Assembly (NCBI RefSeq): GCF_027604915.1
Contig: NZ_JAJAQC010000003.1
Span: 124,001 to 188,000, forward strand
Reading direction: 5' to 3'
Origin: Streptomonospora mangrovi
GTDB lineage: Bacteria > Actinomycetota > Actinomycetes > Streptosporangiales > Streptosporangiaceae
Length of the DNA stretch: 64,000 nt
A model generated the notes under the pieces. The model searched no databases. It was not told the origin of the DNA and was given only the letters and a program-made list of their open reading frames with translations. Shown here in pieces: positions 13,848-34,336 of this stretch (position 1 is the stretch's first letter; every line of letters begins with the position of its first letter). The position numbers and the translations under genes are program-made.

Positions 13848-16800
13848 ATGGAGTTCGAGGTTCTCGGACCACTGCAAGTGAGCAGCCGCGGCGCGTCCGT
13901 ACGCCTCTCGCCCAAGCTCGCCGCCCTACTCGCGGCGCTCCTGTGCAAACCCGATGTCGTCATCCCCGAAGAGCAGTTGATCGACGTCCTGTGGGGCGAG
14001 GAACCCCCGCGCTCGGCCACCAAGAGCCTCCAGGTCTACGTCCACCACCTCCGCCAGGCCCTGGGCGAGGACGGCCGGATCGACCGCGCGGCGTTCGGCT
14101 ACCGGCTCGCGGTGCCGCGCGCCGCCGTCGACGCCCGCCGCTTCGAGGACCTCGCCGAACGCGGCGAGCAGGCGCTGGAGTCCGGCGCCGTCGCCGAGGG
14201 CAGCGCCCTGCTCAGCGCGGGCCTGAACCTGTGGCGGGGCACCGCATTCGCCGGGCAGGACACCCTGCCCCTCGTGCGCGAGGAGGCCGCCCGGCTGAAC
14301 GAGAAGCGCCAGCGCGTGGCCGAGTCCTGGGTCGACGCCGAGCTGAGCCTGGGCCGGCACAGCGCGGTGGTGGCCGAACTCCGGGCGCTCGTCGCCGAAC
14401 ACCCCTTCCGCGAGCGCCTGCGGGGCCAGCTCATGATCGCCTACCACCGCATGGGCCGCTCCACCGAGGCGCTGGAGGTCTTCCGCGAGGGCCGCGACCT
14501 GCTCATCGACGAACTCGGCATGGAGCCCGGCCGCGAACTCGCCGCGCTGGAGCAGGCGGTGCTGCGCAACGACCCCTCCCTGCACGCCCCCGCTCCCGCC
14601 GCGGACCCCGCGCCGGAGCCGGACCCGGCCGATCCCGGCGGCGGCCCGGCCGACACCGCCGACCCCTCGGCCGACGCCCCCCTCCCACCGCCCTCGGCGC
14701 CGCCGCGCCCCGCGCCGGCCCAGTTGCCGCCCGACATCGCCGACTTCACCGGCCGCGAGGAGCAGGTCGCCCTGCTCCACACCCGCCTGGGCGTCCGCCC
14801 GCCGGACCCGGCCCCCGCCCCGGTGCCCGGCCCCCGCCGGGGTTCGTCATCCGACACCCCCACCGGGGGAGCGGGCGGGGGCTCCGCCTCCGGCGGCCCC
14901 GGACCCTCGGCATCCCCGGGCGGGGCGCGCCCGGTCGTGGTGTCGGCCGTCGCCGGCATGGGCGGGGTCGGCAAGACCGCCCTCGCCCTGCACGCCGCCC
15001 ACACCAGCGCCGCCGCCTTCCCCGACGGCCAGCTCTACGCCAACCTGCGTGGCGCCCAGGAGACCCCGGCCGACCCCGCGCAGGTGCTCTCGCAGTTCCT
15101 GCACGCCCTGGGCATCGAGGGCGCGGCCGTGCCCGAACCCCTCGAATCCAGAGCGGCGCTGTTCCGGTCGCTGCTGGCCGACCGCCGCATGCTGGTCGTG
15201 CTCGACGACGCCGGCTCCGAGCAGCAGGTCCGCCCGCTGATCCCCGGCGCGCCGGGCTGCGCGGTGCTGATCACCAGCCGCGCCCGGCTGACCGGCCTGG
15301 AGGGCGCCCACCTCATCGACCTCGACGTCTTCGAGCCCGAGCGCGCGGTCGAGCTGCTGGCGCGCATCATCGGCCACGACCGCGTCGCCGCCGAACCCGA
15401 CCAGGCCGCCGAGATCGTCCGGCTGTGCGGGTACGCGCCGCTGGCGGTGCGCATCGCCGGCGCGCGGCTGAACGCGCGGCGGCAGTGGCCGCTGTCCCGG
15501 CTGGCGCGGCTGCTGGGCGACGAACAGCGCCGCCTGGACGAACTCCGCACCGGCGACCTCGGGGTGCGGGCCACCTTCGCGCTGAGCTACGCCGCCCTGA
15601 GCGAGCGCGGCCGCTCGGCGTTCCGGCTGCTGGGGATGCTGGAGGCCGGCGACTTCACCGAGTGGGTGGCCGCCGCGCTGCTGGACGTCCCCCTGGCCGA
15701 GGCCGAGACCGTGGTCGAGGACCTGGTCGACGCCCAACTGCTGTCCATCTCGGGCACCGACGGCACCGGCCGGCTGCGCTACCGCATGCACGACCTCATG
15801 CGGCTCTACGCCCGCGAGCGCTGCGCCGAGGAGGTCCCCCAGGCCGAGCGCGAGGCCGCGCTGCGGCGCGCGTTCGGCGCGTGGCTGTGGCTGGCCGAGC
15901 AGGCCACCGAGTACATCCCCGGCCCCTGCTACGCCACCATGCACGGGTCGGCGCTGCGCTGGCCGCTGCCCTCGCCCGAGGCCGCCGACCTCCTCAACGA
16001 GCCCATGTCGTGGTACGACGCCGAGGCCGGCGCCATGGCGGCGGCCGTGGCGCAGGCGTGCGCGCTGGGCTGGGACGAGGTCGCCTGGGACCTCGCCGGA
16101 TGCCTGGAGAAGTACTTCGACGTGCGCGGCCGCTTCGACGACTGGCGGCGCACCCACGAGGCCGCCATCGCGGCCTGCCAGGCGGCGGGCAACGTCCGCG
16201 GCGAGGCGGTGCTGCGGCGCGGCCTGGCCGACCTCGTCACCTGGACCACCCAGAACACCACGGGCGGCGCCGACGGCGCCATGGGCACCCTGCTGGACCA
16301 GTCCCGGCTGGTGTGGGAGATGTTCCAGGAGATCGGCGACCGGCGCGGCATGTCCGACGCCCTGGTCATGCGCACCTGGGCGCTGGTGTCGCGGGGGGAG
16401 TCCGCCAAGGCGCGGGAGTCCGCCGAGGCCGCCCTCGACCTCGCCGAGGGCGCCGACTACCTCGGCGGCCGGGCGCGCGCCTACCACGTGCTGGCGGTGG
16501 CGGCCCACGGCGAGGGCCGCGACGACATCGCGGTCAGCCACCTCACCCGCTCGCTGGAGCTGGCGCGGCTGCTGGGCAACTCCCGGTTCGAGGCCACCGC
16601 CATGCAGTTCCTGGGCGCCGCGCAGTGCCAGATCGGCCGCATCGACGAGGGCCGCGCCAACCTCACCCGCTCACTGGCCATGTCGCGCGCGCTGGGCGAC
16701 CACTACGCCGAGGTGTTCTCGCTGCTCTACCTGGCCCGCCTCCACCGCGCCACCGGCGATCCCGGCGCCCTGCCCACGGCCCGCACCGCCGCCGAACTCA

Positions 16801-17075
16801 GCCGCCGCCACAGCATGAACCACCACCTGGCCGACGCCCTGACCCTGATGGGCGACACCCTCCTCGACCAGGGCCGCACCGTCGAGGCCGTCTCCGCTCT
16901 GGAGGAGTCGGTGGCCCTGTGGCGAACCCGAGGCTGGCCCGCCTTCCTGGCCGACGCCCTGACGTCTTTGGCCCGCGCCTACACCGCCCTGGGCGACCAT
17001 TCAGCCGCCGCCACCGCCACCCAAGAGGCCGCCACCCTCCGCACCGGCTCCCCCGACACCACCCCCGCCGAGTAG
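13848..17075 (+). CDS. AfsR-like SARP regulator with NB-ARC and TPR domains
   Basis: The 1075-residue protein has three parts. Residues 1-95 are an OmpR-type winged helix (MEFEVLGPLQV; PEEQLIDVLWGEEPP) and about 96-245 are a bacterial transcriptional activation domain ending LGMEPGRELAALEQAVLRND. A Pro/Ala-rich linker follows. From about 365 there is an NB-ARC ATPase with P-loop AGMGGVGKTALALH and GxP-like CGYAPLAVRIAGA. The C-terminal third is TPR repeats (for example RAYHVLAVAAHGEGRDDIAV). Such proteins activate secondary-metabolite genes or general physiology when ATP and a signal bind. No biosynthetic cluster is directly adjacent; the halogenase cassette is 10 kb away, so a link is speculative. 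GAGGAGTTGACATG gives the start. Confidence 0.92.
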   Translation: MEFEVLGPLQVSSRGASVRLSPKLAALLAALLCKPDVVIPEEQLIDVLWGEEPPRSATKSLQVYVHHLRQALGEDGRIDRAAFGYRLAVPRAAVDARRFEDLAERGEQALESGAVAEGSALLSAGLNLWRGTAFAGQDTLPLVREEAARLNEKRQRVAESWVDAELSLGRHSAVVAELRALVAEHPFRERLRGQLMIAYHRMGRSTEALEVFREGRDLLIDELGMEPGRELAALEQAVLRNDPSLHAPAPAADPAPEPDPADPGGGPADTADPSADAPLPPPSAPPRPAPAQLPPDIADFTGREEQVALLHTRLGVRPPDPAPAPVPGPRRGSSSDTPTGGAGGGSASGGPGPSASPGGARPVVVSAVAGMGGVGKTALALHAAHTSAAAFPDGQLYANLRGAQETPADPAQVLSQFLHALGIEGAAVPEPLESRAALFRSLLADRRMLVVLDDAGSEQQVRPLIPGAPGCAVLITSRARLTGLEGAHLIDLDVFEPERAVELLARIIGHDRVAAEPDQAAEIVRLCGYAPLAVRIAGARLNARRQWPLSRLARLLGDEQRRLDELRTGDLGVRATFALSYAALSERGRSAFRLLGMLEAGDFTEWVAAALLDVPLAEAETVVEDLVDAQLLSISGTDGTGRLRYRMHDLMRLYARERCAEEVPQAEREAALRRAFGAWLWLAEQATEYIPGPCYATMHGSALRWPLPSPEAADLLNEPMSWYDAEAGAMAAAVAQACALGWDEVAWDLAGCLEKYFDVRGRFDDWRRTHEAAIAACQAAGNVRGEAVLRRGLADLVTWTTQNTTGGADGAMGTLLDQSRLVWEMFQEIGDRRGMSDALVMRTWALVSRGESAKARESAEAALDLAEGADYLGGRARAYHVLAVAAHGEGRDDIAVSHLTRSLELARLLGNSRFEATAMQFLGAAQCQIGRIDEGRANLTRSLAMSRALGDHYAEVFSLLYLARLHRATGDPGALPTARTAAELSRRHSMNHHLADALTLMGDTLLDQGRTVEAVSALEESVALWRTRGWPAFLADALTSLARAYTALGDHSAAATATQEAATLRTGSPDTTPAE

Positions 17076-17153
17076 CCCCCGCCGCATGTGGCGCACACAG
17101 CACCGCTCCCGCCCAACGCCACCCCCAACATCCGGTAAACTCAAGGAGGTCAC

Positions 17154-17229
<76 letters not shown>

Positions 17230-17841
17230 GCAAAACCGCAGGTCAGTGCCCTATGGGCTGCTCTTTCTCCATTCCGCCGGGATTCCGGGCGCGTTCGGCG
17301 TGCCTTTGTGGGCATCGGCTGCTGCATTCGTGGCTCCGGGTGGTCGACATTCGGGGGCCGGTGTTCTCTTGCTCGGTCGGCTGTGGCCGGGGCGGCGCTG
17401 GCTTCTGGTGGGCGTGGCCCGATGCGGCCCGGTGTGTACATCGAACCGCTGCGGTGGGTAACCGCCACCCGTCATAATGCCCCGCGCTGCTGTGCGCTTC
17501 CGTGCCGGTGGTCGTCATCGGCCGGGCGACCGCAGCGGCTCCTCTCCCGGTCGGCCGGCAGGTGCGCCTGTTCTCGACGGGTCGCCCCTGCTCAGCGGTG
17601 GCGACGGCCGGCCCGGGGGAGGGCGGGCGGTTCCGGCCCCGCCGCCGGGGGTGGCGCGTGGCCGCCCACGCCGACCGCGGGCTGTCCGCCGGTGTCCTGG
17701 TCACCCGCGCCGCGTCAGCGCAGACGGGGGCCGCCGGCGCGATCCTTGCCGACTCCGGGGCGCGGTGTTTCGATGCCCCCGCGCGCACTCAGCGCTGTCG
17801 CGCGATCCTCTCTCGGTAACCCGGTAGCACGAGGAGTCCAT
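17230..17841. other. Intergenic region downstream of tRNA-Lys
   Basis: About 600 bases without a supportable gene. Frames on both strands have random-looking composition and no recognisable motif. I see no integrase remnant or clear terminator. Confidence 0.5.
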
Positions 17842-18175
17842 ATGGCGGAGACCTGGGTCAAGTTCATCACACTGCACTGCGACACCACCGAGGACAACAC
17901 CGGTCCCGACAACGCCTATTCGAAGTGGGACGGCACTACCTTCTGGGGTTGTCGTGGAGATCAACGACGGTGAGGAGAGGAGCGCCGACCGCATGGTGAA
18001 GCTCGACGGAGGCTCGGGCAAGGCCGAACTCCGGGACGAGGACAGGCCCGACCCCGACGACTTCCTCGGCAGCGAGAACATCCAGGCCGAAGAGGTCGGC
18101 AAGGGCGAGAAGAAGATCACCTTCGGCGGCGACAACGCCAGCCACTGGCTGACCTACAAGGTCGTGGAGATCTAG
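17842..18175 (+). pseudogene. Frameshifted small C2-like hypothetical protein
   Basis: The first frame (ATG 17842) encodes MAETWVKFITLHCDTTEDNT and continues to the segment DGTTFWG. After one surplus base (around 17950, in GGGGTTGTCG) the continuation lies in the next frame: VVEINDGEERSADRM, DEDRPDPDDFLGS and a C-terminal TFGGDNASHWLTYKVVEI. Together they form one coherent protein of about 110 residues. It is acidic and of the small beta-sandwich, C2-like type (WDEDRPDPDD-style loop) seen as hypothetical proteins in actinobacteria. Read as is, translation stops after about 43 residues. A sequencing error is equally possible. Function is unknown. Confidence 0.7.
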
Positions 18176-18284
18176 CCGGTTCACCCGCAGCCGCCGCCGA
18201 CGCAGCGAACACGGGCGCTCCCTGCCCCCGTCCCCCGGTGTTTCGGGGCACGGGGCGCCCACCCGCTCACCGGCCTCGTGCGCA

Positions 18285-19553
18285 TCAGGCCCGCTGCCGA
18301 TAACGGCGCGGCGTCGACGGCGGAGGGATGGGTGCGGCAGCAGAGCCGCCTTCTCCGGCAGCCGGGGGCGGGAAGGACACGCGGACGTCCAGGCCCCCTT
18401 CGGCGCGGGGCGTGGCGGACAGGGCGGCGCCGTGGGCCTCGGCGATGGCGGAGACGATGGACAGGCCCAGGCCTAGGCCGCCGTCTCCCGCCGTGCGCGG
18501 CGGTCCCGGGCGGCGGAAGGGCTCGAAGAGCAGGCCGGCCTCCTCGGGGACGATCACCCGGCCCGTGTTGGTGACGCGGAGGACCGCCCGGCCCTCGCAC
18601 ACGCCTGTGCGGACGGTGGCCTCGCCACCGGGGACGTTGTGCCGCAGGGCGTTGTCGACCAGATTGGTGACCAGCCGCTCGACCAGGCGGGGATCGCCCG
18701 CCGCCGGCGCCGTGGCGAGGTCGGCCGCGACGCGCACGTCATGGGTGCCGTCGGCGGTGTCGAGACACGCGTCGGCGAGCACCGCGAGATCCAGCGGGCG
18801 GCGGTGCGCCACCCCCTGCTGGCCGCGCGCCAGGTCGAGCAGGGCGTCGATGAGCCGTTCCTGCCGCCGGTTCGCCACCAGGACCTGCTCGCAGGCGGCG
18901 CGCAGGTCACCGGTGCCGGCCCCGGGATCGGCCAGGGCGACCTCCAGCACGCTGCGCTCGAAGGTGATCGGGGTGCGCAGTTCGTGCGACGCGTTGGCGA
19001 CGAACCGCCGCTGCGCCTTGAAGGACGCCTCCAGCCTGGCGAGTAGTCCGTCGAACGTGTCGGCGAGGTCCTTGACCTCGTCGCCGGGTCCGCGGACGTC
19101 GAGTCGCTGGTGCAGGTCGCGCGCCGACATGTCGCGCGTGGTGGCCGCCATCTCGCGCAGCGGGTGCAGCATACGACCCGCCATCACCCAGCCCAGCCCC
19201 AGGGCGACCACCGCCATGACAGCCAGCGCGATCCCCGACGCGATCGGCAGCAGCCGCAGGCCGTCGGCCGACTGCTGTTCCGGGGACGGGGGGGCGTTCG
19301 GCGCGTCGAGCGGCGGCGCGGCGCCTTGCAGCGGAGCCGGCGCGGGCGATGCCGGGGAGCCGGGGGGTTCCACGCCCGCGAGCGGCAGCACATGGGCCGT
19401 CAGTAGGTAGGTGAGGGCGAGCAGGAGCGCGCCCGTGGCGACGAACAGCGCTCCGTAGAGCACGGTGAGGCGCATCCGGATGGTCCACCGGCGACCCCCT
19501 GTGGGGCGCGGAGGCTCCGGTGCGGCGGCAGGGCGGGGGTCCACGGCTTCCAC
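18285..19553 (-). CDS. Sensor histidine kinase
   Basis: The 422-residue membrane kinase has TM1 at about residues 28-52 and TM2 at about 101-123. A short Pro-rich extracellular sensor segment lies between them, then HAMP (124-177). The H-box is SHELRTP with His190, and the ATP domain carries NALRHN (N box) and GGLGLGLS (G box). The GTG start is four bases after the stop of the response-regulator gene, so the two form an operon. The extracellular part is only about 50 residues, which argues for sensing a membrane or small-molecule signal. The signal is unknown. Confidence 0.9.
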   Translation of the reverse strand: MEAVDPRPAAAPEPPRPTGGRRWTIRMRLTVLYGALFVATGALLLALTYLLTAHVLPLAGVEPPGSPASPAPAPLQGAAPPLDAPNAPPSPEQQSADGLRLLPIASGIALAVMAVVALGLGWVMAGRMLHPLREMAATTRDMSARDLHQRLDVRGPGDEVKDLADTFDGLLARLEASFKAQRRFVANASHELRTPITFERSVLEVALADPGAGTGDLRAACEQVLVANRRQERLIDALLDLARGQQGVAHRRPLDLAVLADACLDTADGTHDVRVAADLATAPAAGDPRLVERLVTNLVDNALRHNVPGGEATVRTGVCEGRAVLRVTNTGRVIVPEEAGLLFEPFRRPGPPRTAGDGGLGLGLSIVSAIAEAHGAALSATPRAEGGLDVRVSFPPPAAGEGGSAAAPIPPPSTPRRYRQRA

Positions 19554-25712: not shown

Positions 25713-26204
25713 TCAGGCGGTGACCGGCAGCAGGACCCCGCCCGTCAGGCGGAGGAGTTCGTCGGCGGTGGTGGGAAAGACCGTGTGCGGGGTGCCGGCG
25801 GCCGCCCACACCTGGGGGTAGTCGGCCAGGGCGGAGTCGACCACGGCGGGCAGCCGGCTGGGGTGGCCCACCGGGGCCACGCCGCCGATGGCCTGGCCGG
25901 TGGCCGCGCGGACCTGGTCGGGGGTGGCGCGGCGCAGCTTGCCGCGCCCCCAGCGGGCGGCGAGGGCGGCGGTGTCGACCTTGTGCCGGCCGCTGGTCAT
26001 GACCAGCACGGGTTCGTCGTCGGACACGAACACCAGGCTGTTGGCGATGGCGCCGACCTCGCAGCCCAGCGCGGCGGCGGCCTCGGCGGCGGTGCGGGTG
26101 GAGTCGGAGAGCTGGCGCACCGTGCCGGTGGCGCCTTCGGCGGCGAGGATGCGGGCGACCTGCGCGCTGCGTTCGGGCAGCGGCCGACTCGTCGTCGATT
26201 CCAT
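25713..26204 (-). CDS. YbaK/EbsC family aminoacyl-tRNA deacylase-like protein
   Basis: The 163-residue single-domain protein matches the YbaK/ProX editing fold. AAALGCEVGAIANSLVF contains the conserved family core, followed by VMTSGRHKVDTAAL with the invariant Lys, and GQAIGGVAPVGHP, the GxxPxG signature loop. Such proteins hydrolyse mischarged tRNAs in trans (Cys-tRNA-Pro, Ala-tRNA-Pro) in the cytoplasm. I start at MESTTSR because upstream residues are non-conserved. It diverges from the XRE-cupin regulator gene. Confidence 0.87.
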   Translation of the reverse strand: MESTTSRPLPERSAQVARILAAEGATGTVRQLSDSTRTAAEAAAALGCEVGAIANSLVFVSDDEPVLVMTSGRHKVDTAALAARWGRGKLRRATPDQVRAATGQAIGGVAPVGHPSRLPAVVDSALADYPQVWAAAGTPHTVFPTTADELLRLTGGVLLPVTA

Positions 26205-26256
26205 GGGACCCCCTGTGCCGCTGCGCCGCCGGAGGGACACCGGCGGGCACAGCCGC

Positions 26257-26294
26257 CCGTTCTGTAAACGGAACGATGTGACCCATGGAACGAT
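26257..26294. promoter_or_regulatory. Repeat-rich operator candidate between YbaK and XRE genes
   Basis: CCGTT-CTGTA-AACGG (26257-26271) is a perfect 5-bp-arm palindrome. GGAACGAT occurs twice (26270-26277, 26287-26294) with 17-bp spacing. This divergent 150-base region is a probable binding site for the XRE-cupin regulator. Confidence 0.4.
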
Positions 26295-26353
26295 AGACCC
26301 GACGGTAGCTGTGATCAACCCGCCGCGGACAGTCCGGGCGACGAGGGGGCGGC

Positions 26354-26872
26354 ATGGGCATGGCGGCGCGGGTCGGGCTGCGGCTGCGCGAGCTGCGGAT
26401 CTCCCGCGGACTGTCCCTCTCGGAGCTGGCCCGCCGCTCGGGCGTGGGTAAGGCCACCCTGTCGGAGTTGGAAGGCGGCCGCCGCAACCCCACTCTGGAG
26501 ACCGTCTACGCGCTCACCACGGAGCTGGGGGTGCCGCTGAGCAGCGCGCTGACGGTCCCGGCGGCCCCGGTCGGCATCTCCGGCGAGGCGGTGGACGCCG
26601 TGCTCGCCGACCGGTTCGAGGACTCCGCCGCGGTCACCGAGACCTACCGGGTGCGGGTCCGGGCGGCGGCGGTGCAGCACTCGGCCGGGCACACCCGGGG
26701 CACCACCGAGCACATCGTGGTCCTGTCCGGCGCGGTGCTGGTGGGCGAGGCCGCCGCGCCGGTGCGGGTGGCCGCGGGCGGGCACACCGCGTGGGCCGCC
26801 GACGTGCCCCACGTGTACCAGGCGCCCGACGGCGACGCCGAGGCGGTCCTGGTGGTGCGCTACCCGCGCTGA
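26354..26872 (+). CDS. XRE family regulator with C-terminal cupin domain
   Basis: The 172-residue protein begins with an HTH_3/XRE domain (RLRELRISRGLSLSELARRSGVGKATLSELEG, given in two pieces: RLRELRISRGLSLSEL, ARRSGVGKATLSELEG). It ends with a small cupin (HIVVLSGAVLVGEA; AGGHTAWAADVPHVY), the effector-binding architecture of the MerR/XRE-cupin class. Such proteins repress metabolic or stress genes in response to small ligands. It diverges from YbaK. It is also the nearest regulator upstream of the halogenase cassette, in the same orientation with 315 bases between, so it could influence that cassette (speculative). Confidence 0.87.
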   Translation: MGMAARVGLRLRELRISRGLSLSELARRSGVGKATLSELEGGRRNPTLETVYALTTELGVPLSSALTVPAAPVGISGEAVDAVLADRFEDSAAVTETYRVRVRAAAVQHSAGHTRGTTEHIVVLSGAVLVGEAAAPVRVAAGGHTAWAADVPHVYQAPDGDAEAVLVVRYPR

Positions 26873-27187
26873 GCGCGGCGCCGCGCGGGCGCCCCCGGCG
26901 TTTCGGACCCGGGAACTGGTCTTTTCGGCCGCGTCCTTAGGGCCGCCACCGGCCCCGGAGCGGCGGTTCGGTAAATGATCAATGCCCCTACCGGGGACTT
27001 CTCCCGGGACTGTTGACGCGGCTGAAGACTAGTGATGAAATCCGTTCACCGGGTGAGCCGAATGACCCGTGGATAACTGTGGCCGCCGTTCAGGACGTCC
27101 CTTCGTCACGATCCGACATCTTCCACTCCGAACGTTTCTGTTGTGTTTCCGCGCCTGCCCTTCGGCGCGCCTACAGAAAGTTGAGTA
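26873..27187. other. Promoter region of the halogenase cassette
   Basis: 315 bases without a gene, AT-richer toward the halogenase. TTGACG at 27013-27018 with TGAAAT 17 bases later is a weak promoter candidate. GC hairpin-forming sequence lies near 26985-27010 and could end transcription from the XRE gene. Confidence 0.4.
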
Positions 27188-28141
27188 ATGGGACACCCCA
27201 CCGACGAGAAAACGTTCTACCTCAGCCCCGAGGAAATCGACCAGTTTCACCGTGACGGCTACATCGGCCCGTTCGACCTCTACGAGAAGGAGGAGATGGA
27301 GGCCAACCTCCAGGCCCTCCGCCCCAAGCTGCTGAACACCAAGAAGGCCATCTACGGCGGCGGCAAGACGGTCTCGGGCACCACCAACCTGGCCAACTAC
27401 GACCGCCACCTGGACATCGACTTCCTGGCCGACCACATCACCCGGCCCGAGATCGTCGACCGCGTGTCCAGTCTGCTGGGTCCCAACACCCTGTGCTGGC
27501 GCACCGAATTCTTCCCCAAGTACCCCGGGGACGAAGGCACCGACTGGCACCAGGCCGACAACTTCTCCAACGTCGCCGGGTCCAAGCACCCGCAGATCGT
27601 GTGGCCCGAGGACGCGGAGTTCGGCGGCACCATCACGGTGTGGACGGCTTTCACCGAGGCGACCGTCGAAAACGGCTGCCTCCAGTTCATCCCGGGCTCG
27701 CACAAGTCGATGAACTACGACGAGTCCAAGGTCATGGAATACAATTCCGAGGCCATTAACAAAACCGAGAAGAACGGCGTCCGCCGCGGATTCTTCGGCT
27801 ACGACTACCGGCAGCTCCAGAAGGACCCCAACTGGAGCCCCGACGAGTCCAAGGCGGTCTCCCAGGTGATGCGCCAGGGCCAGTTCATCGTGTTCTGGTC
27901 GACGCTGATGCACGCCTCCCACCCGCACAGCGGCCTGACCGACCAGATGCGGCTGGGGTTCGCCGCCCGCTACCTGCCGACCCAGGTGCGCGTCTACCCC
28001 TACTCCACCGAGCTGGAGGAGTTCGGCGGCGAGGCGAGCCTGACCAAGTTCGGCAACGTGCTGACCTCCGGCGAGGACACCTTCGGCCACAACCGGTTCG
28101 TCGACCGCACCGTGACCGGGCACCCCTTCCGCACGCGCTGA
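27188..28141 (+). CDS. SyrB2-like Fe(II)/2-oxoglutarate-dependent amino-acid halogenase
   Basis: The 317-residue protein of the chlorinating-enzyme branch of the PhyH superfamily keeps SyrB2-type segments throughout: [64 protein letters not shown] and [14 protein letters not shown]. Iron ligands should be His121 and His242. The usual Asp/Glu ligand is replaced by Ala123 (HQA), which opens the site for chloride and is the defining halogenase feature. Arg261 should bind 2-oxoglutarate. Such enzymes chlorinate unactivated carbons of an aminoacyl group held on a carrier protein. The carrier is the next gene. Base composition is visibly less GC-rich than the neighbours. Confidence 0.93.
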
Positions 28142-28160
28142 CCTGGAAAGGACCGCAACC

Positions 28161-28424
28161 GTGTCGAACCGCACGCCGGCCGCTCCGCTCACCCAGGAGG
28201 GCCTGGAGGAGTGGGTGGTCTCCGCCTGCACCGGCCTCGGGCTGACCACCACGGACGCCGACTCCGACTTCTTCGAGGCCGGGGGCAACTCGCTGACCGC
28301 GATCCGGCTCATCTCCCAGGCCGAGGAGGCGTTCGGCGAGGACGTCCTCCCGCCGGAGGACCTGTTCGCCGAGAGCACCGTGCGCCAGATCGCCGCGACG
28401 ATCCTGCGCAACGCACGCGGCTGA
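28161..28424 (+). CDS. Stand-alone peptidyl/acyl carrier protein
   Basis: The 87-residue carrier domain has the phosphopantetheine site in GGNSL, with Ser44. DFFEAGGNSLTAIRLISQAE is the standard T-domain core, and ESTVRQIAATI helix 4. GTG start, 20 bases after the halogenase stop. It should carry the amino acid activated by the adenylation protein and present it to the halogenase and flavoprotein. This matches the roles of KtzC or CytC2. An external phosphopantetheinyl transferase is needed; none lies in the window. Confidence 0.92.
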   Translation: MSNRTPAAPLTQEGLEEWVVSACTGLGLTTTDADSDFFEAGGNSLTAIRLISQAEEAFGEDVLPPEDLFAESTVRQIAATILRNARG

Positions 28425-28434
28425 GAGCGCGGCC

Positions 28435-29199
28435 GTGCGGCTCGACAGCGACACCTGGCTGCCCCTGATCCGGCCCGCCTCGGAGCCCCGCCGCCTGCGT
28501 CTGGTGTGCTTCCCCTACGCCGGCGGCAGCCCCGACCTGTTCCGCACCTGGGCCGCGCCCCTCGACCCCGGTACGGAACTGCTCGCTGTCCGGCTGCCCG
28601 GCCGCGGCCCGCGGCTGCGGGAGCCGCTCTACGACGACTGGGGGCCCCTGGTCGCTGACACCTGCGGGGCGCTCGCGGCCGCGGGCGTGCTCGCCGAACC
28701 CCACGCCTTCTTCGGGCACAGCTTCGGCGCCCGGCTGGCCTACGAGGTCGCCCGGCGGGCGGCCGCGGACCACCCCGGCATGACCCGCCGGGTGTTCGTG
28801 TCGGGCTGCCGCAGCCCCGACCACCCCCAGCACCTGCCCTACCTGCACACCCTTCCCCACGACACCTACCTGGACTCGGTCCGCGCCATGGGCGGCCTGC
28901 CCGCCGAGCTGCTGGCGAACCGGGCCATGCTGCGCCTGTTCGTGCCCACCATGCGCGGCGACATGCGGCTCGCCGAGCTGTGGGGCGACATGCACGGCGG
29001 ATCGCCCTCGACCGTGCCGATCACCGCCATGTACGGCCGGGACGACCCGGTCGACGGGCGCGCGGCCACCCTCGGCTGGCCGCGCTACGGAGGGCCGGGC
29101 TCGGAGCTGCTGGAGATGCCCGGCGGCCACTTCTTTCTGGACACCCACCGGGAGCTTGTCGTGAAGACCGTGAACGCGAGGCTGGTGAACGACGGATGA
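28435..29199 (+). CDS. Type II thioesterase
   Basis: The 254-residue alpha/beta hydrolase of the GrsT/RifR class has nucleophile Ser96 in GHSFG, catalytic His232 in PGGHFFL and an Asp around 203-204 (GRDDPVDG). VCFPYAGGSPDLFRTWA and LPGRGPRLREP are the usual family start motifs. In free-standing halogenation cassettes such as CytC1-C4 a thioesterase releases the modified amino acid from its carrier. Editing of misprimed carriers is the alternative. GTG start, ten bases after the carrier gene; stop overlaps the next start. Confidence 0.9.
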   Translation: MRLDSDTWLPLIRPASEPRRLRLVCFPYAGGSPDLFRTWAAPLDPGTELLAVRLPGRGPRLREPLYDDWGPLVADTCGALAAAGVLAEPHAFFGHSFGARLAYEVARRAAADHPGMTRRVFVSGCRSPDHPQHLPYLHTLPHDTYLDSVRAMGGLPAELLANRAMLRLFVPTMRGDMRLAELWGDMHGGSPSTVPITAMYGRDDPVDGRAATLGWPRYGGPGSELLEMPGGHFFLDTHRELVVKTVNARLVNDG

Positions 29200-30854
29200 C
29201 CGGCGCGGGGGACCACCCGGGCGCTATCGGCGCCACCGAGGCCGCCCTCGCGGCGCACCGCGCGCTCAACGGCGCGGCCGAGGACCCCTATCCCGAGCGC
29301 GGCGTGGCCGACCTGTTCGAGGAGCGGGCCGCCCGCAGGCCGGACGCCACCGCGCTCGTCCACCGCGGGCGGCCGATGACGTACGCGCAGTTGAACGAGC
29401 GCGCCGACGCGCTGGCCGCGGCGCTGGGGGCTGCCGGCGTCGCGCCGGGCGACGTCGTCACCGTCGTGCTGCCCCGCTGCCCCGACCTGGTCGTGGCGCT
29501 GCTGGCCGTCCTCAAGTGCGGCGCGGTCTACCTGCCGGTGGACACCGCCTGGCCCGACGAGCGCCTGCGCACCCTGCTGGACACCGCCGCCTCGCGGCTG
29601 GCCGTGGCCCGGGAGGCCGATGCGCCCGCGCTGGCCGCGCGGCTGCCCGGGCGGCGGGTGCTGCCGGTGGAGTCGGCGCCGCCCCCCGGCGCGCCGGCGC
29701 CGGCCTACCGCGCCGGCCCCGACGACCTCGCCTACATCAACTTCACCTCCGGCTCCACGGGCCGGCCCAAGGGCGTGCCCGTGCGCCACCGCGGCATCGT
29801 GCGGCTGGTGCACCGCGCCCGCTACGCCCGCCTGGACACCGACACCGTGCTGGTGCAGATGGCGCCGGTGACCTTCGACGCCGCGACCTTCGAGATCTGG
29901 GGCGCGCTGCTCAACGGCGGCACGGTGGTGCTCTACCCCTCGCCGTTCGTCCGCCTGCGCGAGCTGCGCCAGGTGCTGGCCGACCACGGGGTGACCGTGC
30001 TGTTCCTGACCACCGCGCTGTTCAACACCGTGGTCGACGAGGCCCCCGACACCCTGGCCGGGCTGCGCACCGTGCTCACCGGCGGCGAGGCGCACTCGCT
30101 GCCGCACATGGCGCAGGCGCTGCGGCACTACGGCACCGACCGGATCGTCAGCGTGTACGGCCCCACGGAGTGCACCACCTTCGCCACCTACCACCCGGTG
30201 CGCGAACTGCACCCCGAGGAGCCCAGCCTGCCGATCGGCCGGCCCATCCAGCACACCCGCGCCTACCTGGTGGAGGACGGGCGGCTGTGCGAGCCCGGGG
30301 AGTCCGGCGAGGTGCTGCTGGCCGGGCCCGGGCTGTCGCCCGGCTACCTCGGACTGCCCGACGTCAACGCCCGCCAGTTCGCCGACCTGGAGATCGGCGG
30401 GGTCCGCGAGCGGGTGTACCGCACCGGCGACCGGGCGCTGCTGTCGCCGCGCGGGCACCTGGTGTTCCAGGGCCGCACCGACGACCAGGTGAAGGTCAAC
30501 GGCTTCCGCATCGAACTCGGCGAGATCGCCCACCACCTCCAGACCCAGCCCGAGGTGCGGCGCTGCTACGTCACCACCCGGCCCACCGGCCAGGGCGGCC
30601 TGGAACTGGTGGGGTTCGTGGTCCCCGCCGCCGCCGGCTGCGACCCGGCGGCGGTGCGGGAGCGGCTGCGCGCGGTGCTGCCGGCCTACATGGTCCCGGC
30701 GGTGATCGGGGTCCGCGCCGAGCTGCCGCTGACCACCACCGGCAAGGTCGACCGGGCTGCGCTGCTGGCCTCGCTGGAGGAGCGGGCCGCGCCGGACGCG
30801 CGGGCACCGCGCGCGGCGGCCTCGCAGGGGCCGGCCTCGGGGGCGGCCACGTGA
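29196..30854 (+). CDS. Stand-alone NRPS adenylation domain (aliphatic amino acid)
   Basis: The 552-residue adenylation protein has core A3 (NFTSGSTGRPKG, about 182-193), A4 (TFDAATFEIWGALLNGG), A5 (YGPTECTT), A7 (YRTGDRA), A8 (GRTDDQVKVNGFRIELGEI) and A10 with Lys517 (TTTGKVDR). It ends after A10 with no carrier or condensation domain. My hand alignment to GrsA positions gives the code D-A-F-F-L-G-V-T-F-K, which is in the Ile/Val/Leu type. It therefore probably adenylates an aliphatic amino acid and loads it on the carrier two genes upstream, as KtzB does with isoleucine. A short Ala-rich tail is non-conserved. Confidence 0.9.
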   Translation: MTGAGDHPGAIGATEAALAAHRALNGAAEDPYPERGVADLFEERAARRPDATALVHRGRPMTYAQLNERADALAAALGAAGVAPGDVVTVVLPRCPDLVVALLAVLKCGAVYLPVDTAWPDERLRTLLDTAASRLAVAREADAPALAARLPGRRVLPVESAPPPGAPAPAYRAGPDDLAYINFTSGSTGRPKGVPVRHRGIVRLVHRARYARLDTDTVLVQMAPVTFDAATFEIWGALLNGGTVVLYPSPFVRLRELRQVLADHGVTVLFLTTALFNTVVDEAPDTLAGLRTVLTGGEAHSLPHMAQALRHYGTDRIVSVYGPTECTTFATYHPVRELHPEEPSLPIGRPIQHTRAYLVEDGRLCEPGESGEVLLAGPGLSPGYLGLPDVNARQFADLEIGGVRERVYRTGDRALLSPRGHLVFQGRTDDQVKVNGFRIELGEIAHHLQTQPEVRRCYVTTRPTGQGGLELVGFVVPAAAGCDPAAVRERLRAVLPAYMVPAVIGVRAELPLTTTGKVDRAALLASLEERAAPDARAPRAAASQGPASGAAT

Positions 30855-32068
30855 GGGCGGCCGTTGCGGGCGCGACCCTGCCCGACCACCAGCCCTCCTG
30901 GGAGTTCCCCTTCTACGACAGCGGCCACGACGAGTTCCGCGCCCGGGTGCGGGCGCGGCTGGCCGACGCGGTGCTGCCCGGCGCCGACGACTGGGAGCGG
31001 CAGGGCTTCATCGGCGCGGCGGGCTGGCGCGCGCTGGGCGCGGCCGGGCTGCTGGGCGAGCCCCACGACGGCCCGGGGTTCCTGCGCAGCGCGGTGCTGC
31101 TGGAGGAACTGGGGGCCACCGGCTACGCCGGGGTCCGCTCCGCGGTGGGCGTGCACGCCTACATGGCGGCGTCCTACCTGCTGCTGTTCGGGTCCGAGGC
31201 CCAGCGGGCCGCCTGGCTGCCCGCCGCCCGGCGCGGCGAGCGCGTGACCGCGCTGGCCATCACCGAGCACCAGGCCGGCTCCGACCTGAGCGACCTGCGC
31301 ACCGTGGCCGTGCCGCGCCCGGAGGGCGGCTTCCGGCTGGACGGGCACAAGTGCTACATCGCCAACGGCACCCGGGCCGGCCTGCTGGTCGTGCTGGCCC
31401 GCACGGGCGCCCCGCGCGAGGCGCCCGACCCCCCGCGCCGGGCGCCGGGCGGCGGCAACGGGCTGGCGGGGGCGAGCCTGCTGCTGGTCGACGCCGACGC
31501 CCCGGGGGTGGTGCGCCGTCCCCAGCCCATGTCGGGGTACCGCTCCGCCGACGTCGCCGAGATCGTCTTCGATGGGGTGGACCTGCCGGCCGACGCGCTG
31601 CTGGGCCGCCCCGGGCGGGCGCTGCTGCAACTCATGCGCGCGCTGGACTTCGAGCGGCTGGTGGCCGGGCTGCTGGCCGTCGGCGGCGTCCGCCACACGC
31701 TGGAGCTGCTGGGCGCCCACCTGGCCGCCCGCCGGATGCGCGGCGGCCCGCTGGGCGCGCGGCAGGCCGTCCGCCACCAGGTCGCCGACCTGCTGGCGGA
31801 GTACGACACCGTGCGCCGCTACGCCCACCACGCGGCGTGGCTGCACTCCCAGGGGCGGCTGGACACCCGGACCGCCTCGGTGGTCAAGCTGCGCGCCACC
31901 GAACTGGCGGTGGGCGCGGCCCAGACCTGCGCGCGGCTCCACGGCGCCCAGGGCTACCTGGAGGACTCGGCGGTGGCGCGGGTGCACCGCGACGCGCTCG
32001 CCGGGACGATCGCCGCCGGCGCCAGCGAGCTGCTGCGCGACCTCATCGCCGAGGCGCCCGCCACATGA
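30851..32068 (+). CDS. Acyl-CoA dehydrogenase-like flavoprotein (KtzA-like)
   Basis: The GTG start overlaps the adenylation stop, giving 405 residues. The acyl-CoA dehydrogenase fold is complete: N-terminal helices, LAITEHQAGSD (FAD/substrate strand, about residue 135), YIANGTRAGLLVV in the beta domain, and a C-terminal helical domain with RLHGAQGYLEDSAVARVHRD. At the MCAD catalytic-Glu position the motif is IAAGASE (Ala389) instead of IYEGTSE. A Glu in LDFERLV (Glu268) occupies the isovaleryl-CoA-dehydrogenase-type position. Beside a halogenase and a free carrier, such a flavoprotein (KtzA) is known to close a cyclopropane by displacing chloride. Desaturation is the alternative. Confidence 0.85.
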   Translation: MRAAVAGATLPDHQPSWEFPFYDSGHDEFRARVRARLADAVLPGADDWERQGFIGAAGWRALGAAGLLGEPHDGPGFLRSAVLLEELGATGYAGVRSAVGVHAYMAASYLLLFGSEAQRAAWLPAARRGERVTALAITEHQAGSDLSDLRTVAVPRPEGGFRLDGHKCYIANGTRAGLLVVLARTGAPREAPDPPRRAPGGGNGLAGASLLLVDADAPGVVRRPQPMSGYRSADVAEIVFDGVDLPADALLGRPGRALLQLMRALDFERLVAGLLAVGGVRHTLELLGAHLAARRMRGGPLGARQAVRHQVADLLAEYDTVRRYAHHAAWLHSQGRLDTRTASVVKLRATELAVGAAQTCARLHGAQGYLEDSAVARVHRDALAGTIAAGASELLRDLIAEAPAT

Positions 32069-33603
32069 CCGCCACGAGTCCACCCGAACAGCCCGAGTCG
32101 ACGTCGGGACCGCACCGGCAGCCGGTGCCGGCGGCGCCCGTACCCCCGCCCGGCCGGCCGGACGACCCGTCGGCCGGGCGGCGGCCGGTCCGCCGCTGGG
32201 TACTGGCCGCCGGCCTGACCGGGACCGTGCCGCTGGTCGCGATCGTCGCGGCCGCGGTGGTGGCCGCCAGCCTGCCCTCGGGGGCGGCCCAGGGGCCCAC
32301 CGAGGGCGGCGGGTTCCTGGAACTGGGCGCCACCGGGCACTTCTTCCTGGCCGCGGCGGCGGTGCTGGCGGCCGCCCGGCTCGGGGGAGCGGTGGCCCAG
32401 CGGATCGGCCAGCCGCGCGTGGTCGGCGAGATCTGCGCGGGCCTGGCGCTGGGGCCCTCGTTGCTGGGCCGGGTGGCGCCGGACGCCATGGCTTGGCTCT
32501 TCCCGCCCGCCGTGCTGGCGCCCATCGACGGGCTGGCGCAGTTCGGCCTGGTGCTGTTCATGTTCGGGGTGGGCCGCGAACTCGCGGGGATGCGGCTGCG
32601 CGGTGCGACGGGCCGGGCGCTGCTGGTCAGCCAGGCGTCGATGGCGGTGCCCTTCGCGCTGGGCGCGCTGGCGGCCGTCCCCATGGCCGCCGGGTTCGCC
32701 GGCCCCAACGGCGGCGGTACGGCGTTCGTGCTGTTCATGGGCTGCGCGCTGAGCATCACCGCGTTCCCGGTGCTGGCGCGGATGCTGTCGGACCTGCGGC
32801 TGACCCGCACCGAGGTCGGCGGTCTGAGCCTGTTCGCGGCCGCCGTGGGCGACGGCGCGAGCTGGCTGGTGCTGGCGGCGGTGCTGGCCGCGGCCGCCGG
32901 GTCGGCGCCCACCGTGGTCATGGTCAACGCCCTGGCCACGGTGCTGGTGGTGGCGCTGTTCCTGGGTCCGGTCAAGCGGCTGCTGAGCCGCTGGGCGGCG
33001 CGTGCCGGGGGCGGCGGCGCGGGCGAGCCGCTGGTGCTGGTGGTGGGGGTGGCCGCGGCGGCGGCGCTGACCGCCGCGCTGGGCGTGCACCAGTTGATCG
33101 GCGCGATGCTGGTGGGCCTGGCCTGGCCCGGCGGCACCGCCCAGAGCGGGTCGGGCGCGGTGGGCCGGTTCATCCGGGTCGCCGACCAGTTGACCGGCAC
33201 CGCGCGCAACGTGCTGCTGCCGTTCTTCTTCTTCGGGTTCGGGCTCACCGCCGACCTGGGCGCGCTGGACTGGTCGGGGCCGGCGCTGCCGGCGTTCCTG
33301 GCGCTGCTGGCCCTGGCCGTGGCCGGCAAGGTCGTCGGCCCGGGTGTCTGCGCCTGGCTGCTGGGCATGGCGCCGCGCTCGGCGCTGATCCTGGGCGCGC
33401 TGCTCAACGCGCGCGGCCTGACCGAGCTGATCGTGATCCAGATCGGCTACGACGCCGGGATCATCGACGCCGGGATGGCCGCCGTGCTCACCCTGGTCGC
33501 CCTGTGCACCACGATGATGACCGGTCCGCTGCTGCGGCTGCTGCGCGCCGAGCCCGAGAAGCCGGCCGCCCCCGACCGGGAGCCCGCCGAAGCCGGCCGC
33601 TGA
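32065..33603 (+). CDS. Cation:proton antiporter, KefB/CPA2 type
   Basis: The ATG overlaps the flavoprotein stop. The 512-residue membrane protein has a Pro-rich cytoplasmic leader of about 45 residues and then around twelve transmembrane helices. QPRVVGEICAGLALGPSLLG is the typical CPA2 start, with ITAFPVLARML and AAVGDGASWLVL (Asp of the transport site) in the core. The soluble TrkA-N domain of KefB is absent. Overlap makes it part of the halogenase operon. CPA2 proteins of this form are found in antibiotic clusters as self-resistance or export functions, so it may protect against, or export, the product (inference). Confidence 0.85.
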   Translation: MTATSPPEQPESTSGPHRQPVPAAPVPPPGRPDDPSAGRRPVRRWVLAAGLTGTVPLVAIVAAAVVAASLPSGAAQGPTEGGGFLELGATGHFFLAAAAVLAAARLGGAVAQRIGQPRVVGEICAGLALGPSLLGRVAPDAMAWLFPPAVLAPIDGLAQFGLVLFMFGVGRELAGMRLRGATGRALLVSQASMAVPFALGALAAVPMAAGFAGPNGGGTAFVLFMGCALSITAFPVLARMLSDLRLTRTEVGGLSLFAAAVGDGASWLVLAAVLAAAAGSAPTVVMVNALATVLVVALFLGPVKRLLSRWAARAGGGGAGEPLVLVVGVAAAAALTAALGVHQLIGAMLVGLAWPGGTAQSGSGAVGRFIRVADQLTGTARNVLLPFFFFGFGLTADLGALDWSGPALPAFLALLALAVAGKVVGPGVCAWLLGMAPRSALILGALLNARGLTELIVIQIGYDAGIIDAGMAAVLTLVALCTTMMTGPLLRLLRAEPEKPAAPDREPAEAGR

Positions 33604-33832: not shown

Positions 33833-34336
33833 ATGCAGACCGACGAGACCGTGGACAGCCCGTTCGGCGTGCCCATCGTGGTACGGCCCGACGAGGTGGA
33901 GCGCCACGACTACTACGCCACCGGGTTCGACGTCATCCTCCGGGCCGAGGCCACCGGCGGGCGGTACTTCATGATCCGCGAGCGCGACATGAAGCCCGAG
34001 GACGCGCCGCCCTTCCACCTGCACACCCGCGAGGACGAGGTCTGGATCGTCAACAGCGGGCGGTTCCGCTTCTGGATCGGCGGGGACTCCCTGGCGACGG
34101 CGGCCGTCCACGACGTCGGCCCGGGGGCCGTGGTCTACGGCCCGCGCGACGTCGCCCACTCCTTCCAGCCCCTCGACGGAACCGGCGACGTCACCATCCT
34201 GCTGAGCCCGGCCGACAGCCAGGGCTACTTCCTGGGGGTCGGCGCGGCCGAGGAGCGCGAGGACTTCGCGAACCTGGACCGCCTGGCGGCCGTCGGCGTG
34301 CGGGTGCTCGACCGCGCGCCGGTCAACGGCGCGTGA
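33833..34336 (+). CDS. Cupin-domain protein
   Basis: The 167-residue single-cupin protein has HLHTREDEVWIVNSGRFRFW (first motif, with HxH and Glu) and PRDVAHSFQPL (second motif), so metal binding is likely. GTGGAGGG precedes the ATG. The family is broad (dioxygenases, isomerases, lyases), and quercetinase-like or ectoine-synthase-like roles cannot be separated. It has its own promoter and terminators on both sides, so it is transcribed apart from the halogenase operon. Confidence 0.8.
   Translation: MQTDETVDSPFGVPIVVRPDEVERHDYYATGFDVILRAEATGGRYFMIRERDMKPEDAPPFHLHTREDEVWIVNSGRFRFWIGGDSLATAAVHDVGPGAVVYGPRDVAHSFQPLDGTGDVTILLSPADSQGYFLGVGAAEEREDFANLDRLAAVGVRVLDRAPVNGA

Follow-up and report, generated by a model that had tools for sequence, protein, structure and literature searches.

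Does the row of six genes that runs from a halogenase to an antiporter in a 64,000-nucleotide stretch of Streptomonospora mangrovi (contig NZ_JAJAQC010000003.1, positions 124,001 to 188,000, hereafter the window) prepare a building block for a peptide, as related enzymes do in kutzneride biosynthesis, or does it release its amino acid in free form? The answer favoured here, at somewhat better than an even chance, is that an eight-gene unit at 25713-33603 forms a stand-alone pathway that would make and export a free cyclopropyl amino acid of isoleucine type and clear the tRNAs mischarged with it. By analogy with the kutzneride enzymes, the product would most likely be the allocoronamic-type 1-amino-2-ethylcyclopropane-1-carboxylic acid. 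The genes in question and their immediate surroundings are given below.

25713-26204, minus strand: ProXp-x-like aminoacyl-tRNA deacylase of the YbaK/INS superfamily (tRNA_edit), 163 amino acids from an ATG start, with a predicted role in self-protection
26205-26353, no strand: divergent promoter region between deacylase and regulator, with the direct repeat GGAACGAT at 26270 and 26287
26354-26872, plus strand: XRE-family regulator, 172 amino acids (HTH_3, 53.6 bits)
27188-28141, plus strand: carrier-dependent non-heme Fe(II) halogenase of the SyrB2 class, KtzD-like (TIGR01762, PDB matches, Kutzneria copy)
28161-28424, plus strand: free-standing peptidyl carrier protein with phosphopantetheine Ser44 (PF00550, 48.6 bits; Kutzneria copy, 65%)
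28435-29199, plus strand: type II thioesterase with the triad S96/D204/H232, predicted to release the product (PF00975, 108.7 bits)
29196-30854, plus strand: free-standing adenylation domain with the code DAFFLGVTFK, predicted to be of isoleucine type (PF00501, TIGR01733; Kutzneria copy, 59%)
30851-32068, plus strand: acyl-CoA-dehydrogenase-like (ACAD) flavoprotein, KtzA-like, with Glu268, predicted to form the cyclopropane (Acyl-CoA_dh_N/M/1)
32065-33603, plus strand: CPA2/KefB-like cation:proton antiporter, 512 amino acids, possible exporter (PF00999, 147.9 bits)
33833-34336, plus strand: cupin protein, uncertain member of the unit (PF07883)

All six genes that a preliminary description of this DNA had placed at 27188-33603 are present as profile-supported open reading frames, on the plus strand and in the order halogenase, carrier, thioesterase, adenylation domain, ACAD and antiporter, and their ATG or GTG start codons were checked. 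Gaps of 19 and 10 base pairs (bp) separate the halogenase from the carrier and the carrier from the thioesterase, and the three junctions from the thioesterase onward are 4-bp stop-start overlaps, as had been described; the extent of the unit was drawn too narrowly, however, because the deacylase and the XRE regulator upstream had been missed, and the genes number eight. The halogenase reaches 437.9 bits with the NCBIfam chlorinating-enzyme profile TIGR01762 (cut-off 226.3) and, in a PDB search, 437 bits with SyrB2 and 412 bits with CytC3. An alanine that replaces the acidic ligand is the mark of such halogenases, and the facial motif H121-x-A123 together with H242 was read off by motif, as were the intact catalytic triad of the thioesterase and the serine of the carrier. 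The adenylation domain scores 383.4 bits with TIGR01733 (cut-off 317.4), and the antiporter only 106 bits with TIGR00932, under the cut-off of 238.3.

The predicted chemistry follows from kinship to the kutzneride producer. Locus L034 of Kutzneria sp. 744 carries four counterparts in the same order as the window's halogenase, carrier, adenylation and ACAD genes, with identities of 75% (506 bits), 65%, 59% and 59% (378 bits), respectively; we take this four-gene set to be ktzD-C-B-A, the gene names being our own reading of an unannotated record. With 75% and 59% identity to the Kutzneria proteins, the halogenase and the flavoprotein stand near KtzD and KtzA rather than in unrelated branches, as had been anticipated, and in the halogenase tree the Kutzneria copy groups with two other ACAD-bearing loci, L028 and L030 (support 96/93). 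PMC12615548 and PMC8407142 describe KtzD as acting on carrier-bound L-isoleucine ahead of cyclopropane formation. In the window the ten-residue adenylation code (motif-based numbering) reads DAFFLGVTFK, and in Kutzneria DAFFLGMTFK, one place different; the window's version is identical in 19 of 22 related five-gene loci, two others having Ile at one place and one being without the last position; a specificity of isoleucine type is predicted from this code. In the ACAD, Glu268 aligns with the position at which the chains 8w0t and 8w0z of a mitochondrial long-chain enzyme differ (Glu versus Gln), which we take to be the catalytic base of the long-chain (LCAD-type) enzyme, and all 39 cassette ACADs that were read, that of Kutzneria among them, have this Glu; at the presumed position of the MCAD-type C-terminal glutamate the window protein has Ala. 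The window thus contains the H-x-A halogenase, the KtzA-like flavoprotein with its base Glu, the free carrier and the adenylation domain of the KtzA-D module; unlike that module, the cassette does not sit inside a depsipeptide nonribosomal peptide synthetase (NRPS) cluster, its contig (C30) being without a match to the condensation-domain profile PF00668.

In the proposed pathway, the adenylation domain would load isoleucine, or a stereoisomer of it, on the carrier, the halogenase would install a gamma-chlorine on the carrier-bound residue, and the flavoprotein would take the alpha proton, expel chloride and close the ring, so that the final product would be without chlorine. The thioesterase would free the amino acid from the carrier by hydrolysis, with no handover to an NRPS; the antiporter (LysE or MFS proteins in relatives) may help to export it; and the ProXp-x-like deacylase would strip the product off mischarged tRNAs in the manner of FthB and fluorothreonine, and the XRE protein would control expression of the deacylase and possibly of the operon as well. 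We infer loading, chlorination and ring closure from the characterised kutzneride enzymes, and release, export and editing from homology and linkage. The free amino acid suggested by the preliminary description is retained, since the linked deacylase and the LysE genes and ligases of relatives are in keeping with it, and the accompanying "chlorinated or dehydro" options are narrowed to a predicted cyclopropyl product of allocoronamic type.

How widely this arrangement occurs was examined by scanning genome contigs with the window halogenase, which gave 56 loci, or 58 with the window itself and the sister-species copy L108. The presence of a cassette was judged by tblastn under identity, score and distance limits of our own setting, because a simple composition-script gene caller performed poorly on the Pseudomonas loci. 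Halogenase, adjacent carrier, thioesterase, adenylation domain and ACAD occur together in 23 of the 58 loci (22 and the window); the other 35 comprise 11 with an ACAD and no close thioesterase, five with the adenylation domain before the carrier and the ACAD more distant, five with a thioesterase and no ACAD, and 14 with neither. The six-gene order of the window, without an internal deacylase, recurs in a total of six genomes (the window, G003 and L001-L004), and their halogenases form one supported group (97/96) in a tree that omits L055, whose halogenase is broken, and L056, at 29% identity. A similar antiporter is present in L009, where the operon includes a deacylase. Among the window's called genes, only the eight are common to the fetched stretches of L001-L004, bar three distant matches of 37-41% in L002, and in the sister species G003 the wider flanks of the cassette are conserved too. 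An attempt to define an island by its empty site failed, as one flanking gene was found in only 2 of 6 genus genomes. No such cassette is described in the titles and abstract openings among the literature matches listed, most subscription papers being outside their scope.

Several variants were seen alongside. The five loci with halogenase, carrier, thioesterase and adenylation domain and no ACAD (L026, L029, L031, L033 and L050) have the code DAFFLGVVFK; by clustering, all five are accompanied by a class III aminotransferase and four of the five by a KASIII-like protein, and they perhaps make a different chlorinated product. Two loci from Actinomycetes (L035 and L036) combine the halogenase with a different adenylation code, DIWLTGLCIK. 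A four-gene set of halogenase, carrier, adenylation domain and ACAD (L245) is borne by a Mycobacterium plasmid, downstream of transposase and integrase genes, and L018 has an integrase close by, suggesting mobility in both cases.

The linked deacylase bears on the question of a free product. It scores 101.7 bits with Pfam tRNA_edit, and its best PDB match is 2CX5 (TTHA1699) at E 2.4e-34, versus 4.9e-7 for YbaK (2DXA), in searches made with a 135-residue form (25713-26120); among solved INS-superfamily proteins it is closest to TTHA1699, whose entry 2CX5 is a ProXp-x structure according to passages of PMC11295145. In 6 of 6 window-type genomes the XRE-deacylase pair lies on the contig of the cassette, within 18 kb and with the XRE gene beside the deacylase; it is directly upstream in two, 2.7 kb away in L003, 5.0 kb in L002 (where a DDE transposase stands between pair and cassette), 16.7 kb in L001 and 17.9 kb in L004. 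Twelve other loci, from Streptomyces, Nocardia, Pseudomonas, Burkholderia and Pseudoalteromonas among others, have a deacylase gene between the adenylation and ACAD genes. Taken together, 17 of 23 five-gene cassettes (window included) have a deacylase homologue in the stretch fetched, versus 0 of 35 other halogenase loci. The Fisher p of 5e-10 is only a guide, because the classes were defined post hoc, the loci are related by descent and the flanks are short (less than 9 kb on one side in 11 of 57 fetched stretches). A tree was made of 80 deacylase sequences, after omission of duplicate stretches, matches below 75 bits and matches shorter than 100 residues. In it the window-linked copies cluster with support (98/87) together with those of genomes G155 and G185, with Nocardia transvalensis next (92/84); the second linked group, of 11 rows (10 in-operon copies and L037), is separate from it (86/83), so that on this sampling the linkage to the cassette seems to have arisen at least twice.

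Neighbouring genes in relatives also bear on the state of the product. A LysE-type gene directly follows the ACAD gene in L015 (P. aeruginosa PA7) and L018 (P. lactis). In L007 (15278-18042) the ACAD is followed by an FAD protein and a DdaF-like ATP-grasp ligase (160 bits with the dapdiamide synthase profile, cut-off 840); L009 has a flavoprotein and an ATP-grasp ligase downstream, L013 has related proteins, the ligase family is also present in L042 and L045, and the ligase of L021 reaches 168 bits with the BesA profile (cut-off 750). Ligases like DdaF and BesA take free amino acids, and relatives of the L007, L009 and L021 type may therefore produce the free acid and in some cases elaborate it further. 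The L021 stretch at 14851-19302 contains, after the cassette, the BesA-like ATP-grasp ligase, a 51-residue open reading frame (C-terminal TCIRVYCI) and a protein that includes a DUF4135/LanM-like region, where the amino acid is possibly joined to a ribosomal peptide. By clustering or Pfam, a BenE-family membrane protein is located near the cassettes of L003, L007, L012, L013, L014, L023, L037 and L038, and is a possible alternative transporter.

A number of observations weigh against the free, tRNA-edited product proposed above. The window deacylase has Asn55 where TTHA1699 has the Lys of its KSL position, which we take to be important in the superfamily; its activity cannot be assumed, and it is therefore termed ProXp-x-like rather than a firm member of ProXp-x. 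All 13 members of the second linked group, L037 and 12 copies inside operons, have that Lys, and Asn also occupies the position in 27 of 29 background homologues of the alignment. The test of whether either deacylase type keeps exclusively to the cassette came out negative, owing to copies found apart from it. The window-type deacylase is present in an XRE pair in G155 (L231) and unpaired in G185; a halogenase search matched 29 of 341 family genomes at E 1e-60 or better, G155 and G185 not being among them. The pair in G155 could be immunity in a non-producer. Of 394 class genomes searched with the L009 deacylase, 22 gave a match at the set limit. Second-group deacylases of 70-72% identity to the L009 copy occur in five of these, all from one genus, with no cassette gene within about 1.5 kb of them, nor in stretches of 6-19 kb around three, the cassette not having been searched for genome-wide. 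Among the loci of this second-group ProXp-x gene in one genus (L272-L274), the genes near two include a peptidase S58, a methyltransferase, an amidohydrolase, a WYL regulator and a PP2C protein. Within the class to which P. aeruginosa PA7 belongs, 369 genomes gave three deacylase matches at the set limit: PA7 itself (71%) and two others (52% and 55%) whose fetched stretches contain no cassette gene. Conversely, the five-gene cassettes L013, L021 and L028 are without a linked deacylase in their fetched stretches, and L010, the five-gene cassette of Nocardia transvalensis, has the XRE-deacylase pair only on another contig. The code DAFFLGVTFK is likewise common in thioesterase-less and other halogenase loci, so that it informs on the substrate and does not mark release of a free product. 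Finally, alpha,alpha-disubstituted amino acids are generally poor substrates for charging onto tRNA, which sits uneasily with a need for editing, and type II thioesterases can proofread instead of releasing a product.

Some of these points would fit a different account, in which the deacylase and XRE genes are ordinary neighbours with a general role in the quality control of translation, unconnected to the product of the cassette. Deacylase homologues are indeed widespread, with some match in 56 of 60 relatives, and the pair is found apart from any cassette in G155 and at 17-18 kb from it in L001 and L004; nevertheless, the cassette-linked copies fall in one supported group, joined only by G155 and G185 and apart from the other background copies, and none of 28 background copies (L075-L102, with five cases cut off by contig ends) and only one of 26 family copies, that in G155, has an XRE homologue next to it. 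A second deacylase lineage lies inside the operon of 12 other loci. This account appears unlikely.

Two further accounts concern the product itself, and both appear improbable. A carrier-bound cyclopropyl block might be supplied in trans to an NRPS elsewhere, as in kutzneride, with the thioesterase merely clearing stalled intermediates; the Kutzneria set is flanked by condensation domains, halogenase and ACAD occur without a close thioesterase in 11 of 57 loci, an MbtH gene is near one plasmid example, and the draft genome has 10 PF00668 matches on four other contigs (C26, C46, C75 and C76 only). However, a search of the whole draft genome found no condensation domain on the 273,330-bp contig C30 that carries the window, which bears out the preliminary description in that the cassette is not embedded in a full NRPS system and has no NRPS nearby as far as condensation domains are concerned, MbtH not having been searched for. 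An adenylation domain comes after nine of the 10 condensation matches; the exception (C76:956-2326), a weak match of 93 bits immediately ahead of a further condensation domain, may represent an epimerisation domain. The suggested check for an NRPS without a loading partner thus gave no clear adenylation-less module in the fragmented draft NRPS contigs. On these two grounds an ordinary NRPS side-branch was set aside as the main interpretation, a rejection that is weak because of that fragmentation. All six window-type loci moreover retain the thioesterase within the operon, and the linked deacylase and the amino-acid exporters of relatives suit a free product better. The absence of a condensation domain within 10 kb was also considered as a separator of cassette types; with seven condensation-domain queries in tblastn, one was found in 1 of 22 five-gene loci (L028) and in 2 of 11 thioesterase-less ACAD loci, and the criterion was dropped because matches were too few in the latter also, the test being insensitive or the NRPS genes lying further off. 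In the other account, the flavoprotein would dehydrogenate or eliminate HCl with no ring formed, giving a dehydro, vinyl or still chlorinated product. The ACAD is an acyl-CoA dehydrogenase homologue whose near NCBIfam profiles include a prolyl-carrier dehydrogenase (145 bits, cut-off 650), and the ACAD-less relatives listed above (L026, L029, L031, L033 and L050) must yield another product; on the other side stand its 59% identity to the Kutzneria protein with the same Glu and the chemistry by which loss of an alpha proton beside a gamma-chlorine favours 1,3-closure.

The remaining features around the unit are of lesser weight. The repeat GGAACGAT upstream of the XRE gene is a possible operator, although a two-copy 8-mer could be due to chance, and the C-terminal half of the XRE regulator looks cupin-like by eye, with no Pfam match to that half. 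The cupin gene at 33833-34336 has a 76% homologue about 2.6 kb beyond the antiporter in the sister species G003, and no cupin homologue was found in the fetched stretches of L001-L004. ARAGORN calls a tRNA-Cys at 19293-19387, which overlaps a gene called on the opposite strand (18285-19475) and is possibly a false call.

If the free-product pathway is correct, it would provide a concrete reason for the existence of some ProXp-x genes. It would also unite two known ideas, cyclopropane formation by way of cryptic chlorination and self-resistance by tRNA editing, in one portable unit of Actinomycetes and Proteobacteria, and it predicts an uncharacterised antimetabolite directed at translation. 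The broader proposition, that a scattered family of free cyclopropyl amino acids is charged onto tRNA and that ProXp-x-type deacylases were recruited as immunity in at least two independent lineages, is put forward tentatively from the gene linkages and falls short of an even chance; if true, it would give ProXp-x deacylases a natural role beyond the clearing of aminobutyrate and furnish a marker for mining genomes for such amino acids.

Among characterised systems, KtzA-KtzD of Kutzneria sp. 744, which make the allocoronamic (ethylcyclopropyl) thioester of kutzneride, resemble the window in halogenase, free carrier, isoleucine-type adenylation domain and ACAD with the same base Glu; they differ in having no thioesterase between carrier and adenylation domain and no deacylase within 10 kb, and in lying between condensation domains 4.9 kb before and 8.5 kb after, whereas the window set stands alone with its thioesterase, antiporter and deacylase. 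The CytC1-C4 enzymes of gamma,gamma-dichloroaminobutyrate (armentomycin) share a SyrB2-class halogenase, a carrier and an adenylation domain with the window, CytC4 being a thioesterase that frees the antimetabolite in a set not known to include a flavoprotein. Their substrate is aminobutyrate and the dichlorination is retained, as outlined in part of PMC8407142. Unlike them, the window has a gene for a KtzA-like, predicted ring-forming enzyme in the operon, and its halogenase scores lower with CytC3 than with SyrB2. The coronamic acid pathway likewise includes a thioesterase, uses the unrelated cyclase CmaC and ends with the acid coupled to coronafacic acid. In that pathway (CmaA-E/CmaT, for coronatine), a carrier-bound isoleucine stereoisomer undergoes cryptic chlorination and then forms the cyclopropane, according to passages of PMC8407142; halogenases on P. 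syringae-group plasmids (maybe CmaB or SyrB-type) are about 52% identical to that of the window. For the deacylase, the parallel is FthB of Streptomyces cattleya, described in passages of PMC11295145 as a ProXp-ST1-related INS-superfamily deacylase that acts on fluorothreonyl-tRNA and guards the translation of the producer; the window protein differs from it in being ProXp-x-like rather than ProXp-ST1-related, and the predicted amino acid differs in its chemistry.

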